Notes under the pieces: model-generated
Databases searched by the model: none
The model's input: only the letters and a program-made list of their open reading frames with translations
Told to the model about the DNA's origin: nothing
Program-made: the position numbers and the translations under genes
Shown: piece by piece, positions 4,017 through 9,437 of the stretch
How positions within the stretch are numbered: the first letter of the stretch is position 1
Layout of the letters: each line of letters starts with the position of its first letter
Origin: Desulfuromonadales bacterium
GTDB lineage: Bacteria > Desulfobacterota > Desulfuromonadia > Desulfuromonadales > DASPGW01
Length of the DNA: 38,070 bases
Assembly (NCBI GenBank): GCA_035620395.1
Contig: DASPGW010000095.1
Coordinates: 1-38,070 of the forward strand
Reading direction: 5' to 3'

Positions 4017-4025
4017 GGCGCTGAC

Positions 4026-4071
4026 AGCATTTTGGAAATGCTAGAGGCCGGGCGAAGACCCCGGCCTCTAG
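4026..4071 (+). terminator. Tandem hairpins after leuD
   Basis: Two hairpins abut. AGCATTT (4026-4032) pairs with AAATGCT (4036-4042). CTAGAGGCCGGG (4041-4052) pairs perfectly with 4060-4071 over a 7-base loop. The 12-bp stem is as strong as a terminator, but no T-tract follows it. It could be a Rho-independent terminator of unusual form, an RNA-stabilising 3' end, or a repeat. Confidence 0.6.
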
Positions 4072-4107
4072 TGCGTCTGGTCCTTCGTGATGCAGATGGA
4101 GGTCGCT

Positions 4108-4635
4108 ATGGTTCTTCCCCTGTTGCAGAAACGCCGCAGCATTCGCCAGTTCAAATCACTGCCGGTCGAGCCGGAAAAGGTCGAGCAGCTGATCGAGGCG
4201 ACGCTGCGTTCCCCCTCTTCGCGGGGGCTCAATCCTTGGCAGTTCGTGGTCGTCGACGACCCGGAGACCCTCCGGCGTTTGGGCAAAGCCAAGGCGCACG
4301 GCTCCGAGTTCCTGACCGGGGCACCGCTGGCGGTGGCGGTCTGCGCCGATCCCGCGCGTTGCGACGTCTGGATCGAGGACTGCGCTATCGCTGCCATTAT
4401 CCTGCAACTGGCTGGCGAGTCGCTGGGCCTGGGCAGCTGCTGGGTGCAGATCCGCCAGCGCCCGCACGGCGAGGGCCGCAGCGCTGAGGCTTACGTGCGG
4501 GAGGTGCTCGGACTGCCGGTGTCGCTGGTCGTAGAATGCATTATCGGCATCGGCTATCCGGCCCGCGGCTTGCCGGGGCACCCGCGGGAGAGCTTGGCCT
4601 TCGATAGGGTGCATCGCAACCGATTCGGTGGCTGA
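4108..4635 (+). CDS. Nitroreductase-family flavoprotein
   Basis: This is a probable FMN-dependent NAD(P)H oxidoreductase of the nitroreductase fold, with unknown physiological substrate. The N-terminal RRSIRQF motif (FMN phosphate binding) is present. So are SSRGLNPWQFVVVDD and the LGLGSCWVQIR segment typical of the second half of the fold. The ATG at 4108 is preferred because GGAGGT lies just upstream. An in-frame GTG at 4087 would add seven residues but lacks a ribosome site. The 175-residue length is normal for a small nitroreductase. It sits between leuD and leuB but has no obvious role in leucine synthesis, and no promoter of its own is clear. Confidence 0.88.
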   Translation: MVLPLLQKRRSIRQFKSLPVEPEKVEQLIEATLRSPSSRGLNPWQFVVVDDPETLRRLGKAKAHGSEFLTGAPLAVAVCADPARCDVWIEDCAIAAIILQLAGESLGLGSCWVQIRQRPHGEGRSAEAYVREVLGLPVSLVVECIIGIGYPARGLPGHPRESLAFDRVHRNRFGG

Positions 4636-4791
4636 TTCCGGGTCTGAACACTGACAGGCAGCAATGCTCCACAGGTCTGGCGGATTCCCCCGGCCTTCGT
4701 TCAAAAATCGAAACCGTCCTGATATTGCAAGCAGGAGAATCCCTTCCCGGAAAGACCTGAAGTTTCGTCGATGTTGGAGAGTGATTTAAAA

Positions 4792-4821
4792 TTGATATTG
4801 TCATAATGATAGTAATATGTT
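4792..4821 (+). promoter_or_regulatory. Possible promoter of the RelE-like gene
   Basis: TTGATA (4792-4797) and TATGTT (4816-4821) are 18 bases apart in a locally AT-rich patch (4783-4820) within otherwise GC-rich sequence. An alternative -10, TAATAT (4813-4818), would leave 15 bases. The match is only moderate. Confidence 0.35.
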
Positions 4822-4854
4822 ACAGCAATTCGAAGCGGCTGTCTCCGCGGCGGG

Positions 4855-4892
4855 GCCGGCCTGTTGAGAGGTTCTGCAACAGTATGGCCGGC
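4855..4892 (+). promoter_or_regulatory. Hairpin abutting the ribosome site of the RelE-like gene
   Basis: GCCGGCC (4855-4861) pairs with GGCCGGC (4886-4892), and TGTTG (4862-4866) pairs with CAACA (4877-4881), with four unpaired bases on the right. The GAGG ribosome site (4893-4896) begins at the very next base, so the fold could hinder translation initiation. Confidence 0.5.
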
Positions 4893-4904
4893 GAGGTGTG
4901 TGGA

Positions 4905-5252
4905 ATGCAGGATTACCGTTATCATCCAACCGACAATTTTGCGGCCAAGCTGGAAAAGATCGGCAGACAGGACCCGCCGGGACATGCACGCATATTGCGG
5001 GTGATCAAACGATTGCTGGCGAACCCGGCGGATGCCGACGGCTGGATGCATGGGGCCCATCATGGCCGTTTGAAGAAATATGTCGGCCGTCGTGACTACC
5101 GGTTGATCTATCACTGGTGTGAGCTCTGCCGCAAGGAGAACCGCCGGATCGAGGATCGCTGTGGGAGTTGTGACATCCTTGCGGACCACAGTGTCATTTT
5201 CTTCGATATTTATCATAAGAACGAGCTCGCCTACCTGAAGAATCTCGGTTGA
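4905..5252 (+). CDS. RelE/ParE-like protein with a zinc-knuckle insert
   Basis: This is a 115-residue protein whose core resembles the RelE/ParE toxin fold. It has a helical N-terminus (FAAKLEKIGR, HARILRVIKRLLANP), then HGRLKKYVGRRDYRLIYHW, then the closing strand VIFFDIYHKNELAYL. RelE-type proteins cleave mRNA on the ribosome and are normally paired with an antitoxin. Between the two core strands sits C72-x2-C75-x10-C86-x2-C89, which looks like a Zn-binding knuckle. No antitoxin gene is visible on either side. The ATG at 4905 is chosen because GAGG lies eight bases upstream and homology begins here; in-frame ATGs at 4806 and 4884 would add non-family residues. The toxin function is inferred, and a regulator or housekeeping RNase is possible. 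Confidence 0.75.
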   Translation: MQDYRYHPTDNFAAKLEKIGRQDPPGHARILRVIKRLLANPADADGWMHGAHHGRLKKYVGRRDYRLIYHWCELCRKENRRIEDRCGSCDILADHSVIFFDIYHKNELAYLKNLG

Positions 5253-5282
5253 GACCGGCTCGCAATCTAAAAAAGGACTGGA

Positions 5283-5759
5283 ATGACTGCCGCCGACAAG
5301 CTCATTGATTTTCTTCGGTCGCAGCTTGGTTCCGAGACCCACGTCGGCCCCTGGCTGACAATTGATCAGGAACGGATCGACCGCTTCGCCGAAGTGACCG
5401 GCGACGTCCAGTGGATACATACCGATCCGCAGCGTGCGGCCAGCGAATCTCCGTTCGGTGCGACGGTGGCCCACGGTTTCCTGACCCTCTCATTGCTCCC
5501 TTTTCTGACCCAGAGCAACCATCCCTATTTTTTTCAGAAGAACTATCCTGGCATGCGGTTGCGGGTGAATTACGGTCTGAACCGGGTTCGCTTCCCGTCC
5601 CCCGTCGTCGTCGGTTCGCGTCTCCGTGCCCACTCCACCCTGCTGAGTGCCGAAAAGCTCGGTGAGGCCGTCGAGGTCGTCTATCGTCTGACGGTGGAGA
5701 TCGATGGAAAGGAGAAGCCCGCCTGCGTGGCGGAGTCGGTCGTGCGGGTCTATCCCTGA
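5283..5759 (+). CDS. MaoC-like (R)-specific enoyl-CoA hydratase
   Basis: This is a hotdog-fold protein of the MaoC dehydratase family. Such enzymes hydrate trans-2-enoyl-CoA to (R)-3-hydroxyacyl-CoA. The 158-residue length is normal for a single-domain member. The catalytic Asp41 and His46 (D-x4-H) lie in TGDVQWIHTD, followed by FGATVAHGFLTLSL, the hydratase signature that ends in the central helix. GLNRVRFPSPVVVGSRLRA forms the second part of the fold. AAGGA lies upstream of the ATG. It follows the RelE-like gene after 30 bases. The CoA substrate cannot be told from the sequence, and no other beta-oxidation gene is in the window. Confidence 0.9.
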   Translation: MTAADKLIDFLRSQLGSETHVGPWLTIDQERIDRFAEVTGDVQWIHTDPQRAASESPFGATVAHGFLTLSLLPFLTQSNHPYFFQKNYPGMRLRVNYGLNRVRFPSPVVVGSRLRAHSTLLSAEKLGEAVEVVYRLTVEIDGKEKPACVAESVVRVYP

Positions 5760-5829
5760 TCGTGCAAAGCGCCCTGCTTGACGTCATTCTGGTTGGGTGT
5801 GCATGTTGTGGCACGGCTTGTGGGACTGA

Positions 5830-7080
<1,251 letters not shown>

Positions 7081-7196: not shown

Positions 7197-8294
7197 ATGA
7201 AAGTCGGACTCATCGGTTGGCGCGGCATGGTCGGTTCGGTTCTTCTGCAGCGCATGCAGGAGGAAAACGATTTCGCGGGCATCGAGCCGGTCTTCTTTTC
7301 CACCTCCCAGGCCGGGGCGCCTGCCCCCATGAACGCCGGGACTCTCAAGAATGCCTCGGATATCGCCGAACTCAAGAAGCTTGACGTCATTCTCACCTGC
7401 CAGGGCGGCGACTACACCAAGGCGGTCCACCCCGAACTGCGCAAGGCCGGCTGGCAGGGGTACTGGATCGACGCCGCCAGCACCCTGCGCATGGAGAAGG
7501 ACGCCGTCATCATCCTCGACCCGGTCAACCGAGGGGTCATCGATACGGCGCTCGCCAAGGGGCAGAAGGATTTCATCGGCGGCAACTGTACCGTCAGCCT
7601 GATGCTCATGGCTCTGGGTGGGCTGTTCCGCGCCGATCTGGTGGAATGGCTCTCCTCCATGACCTATCAGGCCGCCTCCGGCGCCGGTGCTCCCAACATG
7701 CGCGAACTGATCAGCCAGATGGGGGTACTGCACGGCTCGGTTCACGACCGGCTCAAGGACGTGGCCTCGGCAATCCTCGACATCGATCGGGAAGTCACCG
7801 CCATCCTGCGCAGCGACATCATGCCGAAGGAGGAGTTCGGCTTCCCCCTGGCCGGCAACGTCCTGCCCTGGATCGATCGCGAAGTCGAGGACGGCCAGAG
7901 CCGCGAGGAGTGGAAGGGGTTTGCTGAAACCAACAAAATTCTCGGCACTGCCACCCCGATTCCGGTCGACGGCATCTGCGTGCGTGTCGGCGCCATGCGT
8001 TGCCACAGCCAGGCGCTGACCATCAAGTTGAAGCGGGATGTACCGCTCGCCGACATCGAGAACCTGATCGCCAACGACAACCAGTGGGTCAAGCTGGTGC
8101 CGAACACCAAGGCCGACACTCTCGCCCAGCTCACTCCGGCCGCCGTCTCCGGGGATCTCACCGTCCCCATCGGCCGCGTGCGCAAGATGAAGATGGGCCC
8201 GCAGTACCTTTCAGCCTTCACCTGCGGCGACCAGCTCCTCTGGGGCGCCGCCGAGCCGCTGCGGCGGATGCTGCGCATCCTGCTGGAGCGGTAA
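7197..8294 (+). CDS. asd: Aspartate-semialdehyde dehydrogenase, E. coli Asd type
   Basis: It reduces aspartyl phosphate to aspartate semialdehyde with NADPH, the branch point to Lys/DAP, Met, Thr and Ile. The 365-residue protein closely follows the classical Gram-negative form. It has [18 protein letters not shown] at the N-terminus, FFSTSQAG, and the catalytic C131 in [47 protein letters not shown] and [15 protein letters not shown] follow. AAAAGGA lies upstream of the ATG. A second, only distantly related dehydrogenase for the same reaction follows directly. It lies in line with leuB, separated by a heptad repeat. Confidence 0.95.
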
Positions 8295-8317
8295 ACCGAA
8301 AGAGCGTGAATAGTGTG

Positions 8318-8339
8318 GGGGCACGGCGCGCCGTGCCCC
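8318..8339. repeat. GC-rich perfect palindrome, asd-asd gap (copy A)
   Basis: A 22-base perfect palindrome is centred on GGCGCGCC. Its flanks GGGGCAC/GTGCCCC resemble the ends of the GTAGGGGC-class repeats. It lies 15 bases before copy B. Confidence 0.75.
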
Positions 8340-8353
8340 AACGGTCGATGGAA

Positions 8354-8383
8354 CGTAGGGGCGATTCATGAATCGCCCCTACG
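8354..8383. repeat. GTAGGGGC-type palindrome, asd-asd gap (copy B)
   Basis: A 30-base perfect palindrome starts CGTAGGGGCG and ends CGCCCCTACG, centred on TTCATGAA. Its ends are identical to those of the repeat at 3432-3458, while the centre differs. There is no T-tract. Confidence 0.8.
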
Positions 8384-8417
8384 CGCATTCCAGGTCAGGA
8401 AACGGGTGGGACAGGTC

Positions 8418-9437
8418 ATGAGCAAGTTGTTTAATATCGCCATCGTCGGCGCCACCGGTGCCGTGGGCACCGAAATGTTGCGGGTTCTGGAGGAGCGCGA
8501 GTTCCCGGTGCAGTCGCTGCGCCTGCTCGCCTCCGAGCGCTCCGAAGGGAATTTTCTCGAATTCGCCGGCGAGGCGATCATGGTGCAGAAACTCACCAGG
8601 GATTCCTTTGCCGGGATCGACATCGCCCTGTTCGCAGCCGGGGGTGAGCGGAGCACGGCATTCTGCCCGATCGCTGCGGCCGCCGGTGCGGTCTGCATCG
8701 ACAATTCCAGCGCTTGGCGCATGGACCCTGAGGTCCCGCTGGTCGTCCCCGAGGTGAACCCCGGCGATATCTCCGGTTACGCCAGAAAGGGGATCATCGC
8801 CAATCCCAACTGCTCGACCATCCAGATGGTGGTGGCGTTGAAGCCGCTGCACGATGCTGCCAGAATCAAACGGGTGGTGGTCTCCTCCTACCAGGCGGTT
8901 TCCGGTACCGGCCAGAAGGCGATCGAGGAACTGCGTATCCAGACCGGCGAACTGCTCAACGGCCGGCCCGCCGACTGCAAAGTTTATCCGCACCAGATCG
9001 CTTTCAACTGTCTGCCGCACATCGATGTCTTCATGGACAACGGCTACACCCGGGAAGAGATGAAGTTGGTCAACGAGACCAGGAAGATCATGGGCGACGA
9101 CTCGATCATGGTCACCGCTACCACGGTGCGCGTGCCGGTCTTCTACGGCCACAGCGAGGCGGTCAATGTCGAGACCGAGAAGAAGATCTCCGCGGCGCTG
9201 GCTCGGGACCTGCTGGCCGCCGCCCCTGGCGTCCAACTGGTCGACGACGTGAGAAATGAGGTCTACCCGATGCCAATCGACGCAGCCGGGCAGGACCTGA
9301 TCATGGTTGGCCGCATCCGCGAGGACGAGTCGATTGCAAACGGTCTCAATCTCTGGGTGGTCGCCGACAACCTGCGCAAGGGGGCGGCGACCAACGCGGT
9401 GCAGATTGCCGAGATCCTGGCGGAGAAGTATCTTTAA
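8418..9437 (+). CDS. Aspartate-semialdehyde dehydrogenase, second (Usg-like) type
   Basis: This 339-residue protein belongs to the other main branch of the aspartate-semialdehyde dehydrogenase family, the one found in Gram-positives and many other bacteria. It begins NIAIVGATGAVGTEML and continues LRLLASERSEG. The catalytic C132 is in NPNCSTIQMV, then come SYQAVSGTGQKAIEEL, VPVFYGHSEAVNVE and LNLWVVADNLRKGAA. All expected active-site segments are present, so it should be active. The ATG at 8418 is chosen because the upstream part of the frame runs through the palindromic repeats. The E. coli Usg protein is a homologue without a known dehydrogenase role, so this copy could also have another substrate. 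Two non-orthologous versions side by side are unusual. Confidence 0.92.
   Translation: MSKLFNIAIVGATGAVGTEMLRVLEEREFPVQSLRLLASERSEGNFLEFAGEAIMVQKLTRDSFAGIDIALFAAGGERSTAFCPIAAAAGAVCIDNSSAWRMDPEVPLVVPEVNPGDISGYARKGIIANPNCSTIQMVVALKPLHDAARIKRVVVSSYQAVSGTGQKAIEELRIQTGELLNGRPADCKVYPHQIAFNCLPHIDVFMDNGYTREEMKLVNETRKIMGDDSIMVTATTVRVPVFYGHSEAVNVETEKKISAALARDLLAAAPGVQLVDDVRNEVYPMPIDAAGQDLIMVGRIREDESIANGLNLWVVADNLRKGAATNAVQIAEILAEKYL

Follow-up and report, generated by a model that had tools for sequence, protein, structure and literature searches.

The window, the whole 38,070-nt stretch analysed, carries a short gene in a leu gene cluster, between leuD and leuB (leu names other than leuD were read from the sequence). 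Its product begins MQDYRYHPTDNF and ends GRLKKYVGRRDYRLIYHWCELCRKENRRIEDRCGSCDILADHSVIFFDIYHKNELAYLKNLG (translation of 4905-5252, + strand). The frame is open upstream of the ATG back to 4806, and conservation across the homologues, here called family A, starts at this ATG. A weak sigma-70-like match further upstream is a possible promoter of the gene's own. The gene is flanked by a nitroreductase-family gene and a MaoC-like gene. At 0.655, the GC3 of the family A gene lies below the 0.72–0.86 of the flanking genes, a difference that a more recent arrival or weaker selection on codons could explain. Neither strand of the window showed an antitoxin-like ORF near the gene. The features are collected in the table.

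Features at the family A locus, numbered as in the window
Feature	Position	Strand	Remarks
Weak sigma-70-like match TTGATA-18-TATGTT	4792..4821	+	9/12 matches; chance possible
Shine-Dalgarno-like GAGGTG	4893..4898	+	6 nt 5′ of ATG; read from sequence
Predicted RelE-fold Cys4 protein gene (family A)	4905..5252	+	115 aa, ATG to TGA, stop included
Invariant basic residues K57, K58, R62, R66, candidate RNA-binding/catalytic surface	5073..5102	+	46/46 copies; putative role
Cys4 insert C72-x2-C75-x10-C86-x2-C89, candidate zinc knuckle in beta3-beta4 hairpin	5118..5171	+	46/46 copies
H104 and K105, end of last strand	5214..5219	+	H104 46/46, K105 45/46; putative catalytic role
Nitroreductase-family gene, recurrent family A neighbour	4087..4635	+	Pfam PF00881, E 2.8e-25
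MaoC-like dehydratase gene, downstream neighbour	5283..5759	+	Pfam PF01575, E 3.5e-22

Two side observations concern the surrounding genes. Between leuD and leuB (4017-5991), the nitroreductase, RelE-like and MaoC-like genes are not obvious leucine-pathway genes. Further along (7197-9437) lie two tandem, mutually similar genes of the same blastp cluster, which look like aspartate-semialdehyde dehydrogenase (asd) paralogues.

Predicted fold and conserved residues

We examined two AF2 models, one built from the family A alignment (mean pLDDT 77.1, pTM 0.72) and one from a 54-sequence alignment of family A with its sibling families B and C (mean pLDDT 79.5, pTM 0.74). Both have the order beta-alpha-alpha-beta-beta-beta; in each, the Cys insert separates the last two core strands and is itself poorly modelled (block pLDDT about 54–61). 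The predicted strands on either side are 65-71/72 and 96-104, in agreement with the preliminary description of this DNA, which had placed two CxxC pairs between core strands. In Foldseek searches of PDB the top match was RelE of T. thermophilus (E about 4e-4, probability 1.00), followed by RelE, YafQ, YoeB, HigB, ParE and the RelE domain of Cami1; nearly all top matches are RelE, YoeB, YafQ, HigB or ParE at probability 1.00. The comparison with RelE, HigB and YoeB that the preliminary description had proposed as a check thus returned a RelE-like predicted fold.

Sequence comparison reaches the known toxins through an intermediate only. No Pfam or NCBIfam model covers family A; the window protein passed none, including TIGR02385 (RelE_StbE) and PF05016 (ParE_toxin), and had no significant match among PDB sequences, while direct ParE_toxin matches were sub-threshold (6 of 26 family A members). 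Family A aligns with family B by hhalign (probability 97.5%, E 5.7e-12), and TIGR02385, with a cut-off of 27.9, recognises two family B proteins (30.5 and 31.5 bits). The matches of both AF2 models to RelE, YoeB, YafQ and HigB, together with this profile link, support the membership of family A in the RelE/ParE superfamily, and here the earlier reading as RelE-like held.

The C-x2-C-x10-C-x2-C motif reported earlier in this ORF was confirmed at residues 72-89 (CELC-RKENRRIEDR-CGSC). All four cysteines are present in each of the 46 distinct family A copies, so the motif is not a product of chance; L019, with x9, departs from the x10 spacing of the other 45 copies. Two such conserved CxxC pairs are what a zinc knuckle or zinc ribbon calls for, and zinc-finger HMMs gave weak matches to 14 of 26 family A members (best E 0.0013). 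The cysteines probably grip a metal ion at this candidate site. K57, K58, R62, R66 and H104 are likewise invariant, and were matched by eye to RelE/YoeB catalytic residues; H104 occupies what we take to be the position of the catalytic His in YoeB/YafQ-type toxins. Y69, W71 and S96 are also invariant among the 46 copies, and the C-terminal Tyr of RelE is not conserved in the family A alignment. Values of dN/dS between close family A pairs are about 0.02–0.11, indicating strong purifying selection on the gene wherever it persists. These values and the invariant residues rule out a decaying toxin.

Family A shares with the RelE/StbE mRNA interferases (TIGR02385; PDB 2khe, 9g12, 4fxe) the predicted beta-alpha-alpha-beta-beta-beta fold and basic residues on strands 2-3, but it has an insert of about 24 residues, bearing the four cysteines, between strands 3 and 4, it has no linked antitoxin, and the window protein falls below TIGR02385. 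With the YoeB and YafQ toxins (PDB 2a6r, 4mmg, 9lew) it shares the fold, an Arg in a DYRLIY-type strand and a His near the C-terminus, and differs from them in the Cys4 insert and in having no YefM/DinJ-type partner. Cami1, a CARF-RelE effector (PDB 8phb), is a RelE-fold RNase that is not known to be neutralised by a classical antitoxin. It resembles family A in combining a RelE fold with no known antitoxin of that kind, but is controlled by a fused CARF domain that is absent in family A.

Distribution, gene context and sibling families

Family A is present in 36 of the 136 genomes of the order; elsewhere in the phylum it is sparse, with finds in a few further classes. Geomonas, Geobacter, Desulfuromonas and Desulfuromonadales MAGs carry relatives of about 58–77% identity, and some genomes (e.g., G110 and G034) have broken or partial copies only. 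A second family A copy in the window genome, of 72% identity, lies on a 3-kb contig (L052 452-1965; G000 contig C50). Its placement among the Geobacter/Geomonas copies, in a tree of weak support, suggests a separate acquisition or a contaminant contig. A Phd/YefM-type gene near the second copy has its own RelE-type partner. Families A and B had no match in plasmids, phages or viral contigs, and mobile-element cargo was rejected on this ground.

We looked for antitoxins around family A. The adjacent cognate antitoxin gene that marks a type II toxin-antitoxin system was not found in the window, and no antitoxin family of known type recurs among the 66 small neighbours of 46 family A loci; the earlier remark that no antitoxin lies nearby thus extends to the whole subfamily. 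Only nitroreductase and MazG were matched by more than two of the small neighbours (nine each); of the 52 Pfam families in the neighbour tally, those beyond the 25 listed matched at most one neighbour each. Nitroreductase neighbours family A in about 10 loci. A search of the window genome for a family-B-type antitoxin in trans gave no match, a weak result, as it had no positive control. For an RNA antitoxin, Rfam gave only two sub-threshold matches, to eukaryotic families, which we took as chance. Family A may have an unlinked or novel antitoxin.

Family B (about 104 aa, from other Desulfobacterota; e.g., L064 and L154) was found with the family A profile and has its insert at the same place with identical C-x2-C-x10-C-x2-C spacing. 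It differs from family A in a GPHDEAY C-terminus, in lacking the YRLIY Arg and in its overlapping upstream ribbon-helix-helix (RHH)-type gene. In all 15 family B loci with readable upstream sequence, this small RHH-like gene either overlaps the start of the toxin gene or stops right at it, and the one tested matched Pfam DUF6364 above cut-off. We infer from its sequence type and position that it is an antitoxin. Apparent pairs of RHH-type antitoxin and Cys4 RelE toxin with overlapping genes are seen at L061-L073, L112-L115 and L152-L154. Family C (L075, L156, L157) has a Cys-rich insert in the same hairpin, of shorter spacing than in family A (CEEC-x5-C-x2-C-x-C), and, unlike family A, has an overlapping upstream small gene, which also differs from that of family B and could be another antitoxin family; it is of the MMNTSQKVMFNQDD... 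type. Across the 54 sequences of the three families six columns are invariant: P41, V60 and the four cysteines.

These siblings bear on several earlier claims. RelE-fold toxins had been said to lack such sites; as the same insert recurs in sibling RelE families, this general premise was wrong. The context of Cys4 homologues, another proposed check, divides, with no recurrent antitoxin neighbour for family A and an antitoxin-type gene upstream at every readable B and C locus. The insert thus characterises a lineage and does not preclude pairing with an antitoxin, which is the chief argument against its standing in for one. It coexists with antitoxins in the siblings and is best read as a candidate zinc knuckle with a structural role in the beta3-beta4 hairpin. 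The suggestion of a domesticated toxin held by its knuckle survives in part. Domestication is plausible from the purifying selection, the recurrent chromosomal synteny and the zero matches in mobile elements; the knuckle in place of an antitoxin is not supported, because families B and C both combine the Cys insert with an antitoxin-type gene.

Interpretation of family A

The reading we favour, and consider probable, is a RelE/ParE-superfamily protein encoded on the chromosome by a single gene, with a probable RNA-cleaving surface, a Cys4 zinc knuckle and no linked antitoxin. The knuckle would mark a lineage of RelE toxins in which B and C, the other branches, form ordinary toxin-antitoxin pairs, with family A a patchily kept accessory gene under purifying selection and unlinked to an antitoxin. 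Family A most likely keeps an mRNA interferase-type, RNA-cleaving surface; its knuckle, presumed to bind zinc, would lend stability to the extended beta3-beta4 hairpin, with a further contact to RNA or the ribosome as a possible role. Restraint would come from expression level or low activity rather than an antitoxin. The fold, the likely activity and the siblings' toxin-antitoxin link are already known, and the Cys4 branch without a linked antitoxin is a variant; we found no description of a Cys4-bearing RelE in the open-access literature, the scope of our search, subscription journals lying outside it. Current family models largely miss this branch of the superfamily. Its antitoxin-paired and antitoxin-free members could be compared as a direct test of the knuckle's role, and of how a RelE-fold protein is carried without a linked antitoxin.

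A catalytically silent RelE-fold protein, domesticated to bind RNA or the ribosome, would need no antitoxin as it would not cut; the missing antitoxin and the unconserved C-terminal Tyr suit such a protein, but the invariant K57, K58, R62, R66 and H104 and the near-invariant K105 resemble a kept active site, and we consider it unlikely. We give slightly less credence to a metal- or redox-switched RNase, in which the Cys4 site replaces the antitoxin and only loss of zinc or oxidation of the thiols would activate the enzyme. Four invariant cysteines, the lack of a linked antitoxin and hosts from mostly anaerobic lineages would accord with a switch, but the occurrence of the insert beside antitoxin-type genes in B and C argues that it is not tied to antitoxin loss. 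The related proposal of a free-standing RelE RNase whose zinc- or redox-sensing Cys4 site gates cleavage, with no antitoxin needed, appears very doubtful; if true, the toxin of a toxin-antitoxin system would have given rise to an mRNA-decay enzyme under metal or redox control.

A two-gene module, with a MazG-like pyrophosphohydrolase as antidote or functional partner, is to us quite improbable as well. The MazG-like gene adjoins family A in 16 of the 36 genomes with family A (14 directly upstream, 2 downstream), with start/stop overlap at some loci. It is, however, present in 114 of the 136 genomes, most of them without family A, and both the window genome and at least four more genomes with family A lack it. 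As a dedicated antitoxin it was rejected, being near-universal in the order and missing from the window genome. The MazG-nitroreductase neighbourhood also exists without the RelE-like gene, in G112 and G117, where no clear relic of that gene was found at the empty sites. We read the MazG-like gene as a neighbour at a chromosomal site of family A gain or loss, and not as a dedicated antidote. The order MazG-like - (RelE-like +/-) - nitroreductase - TM2 - thioesterase recurs on the chromosome at L087, L088, L090, L091, L128 and L129.
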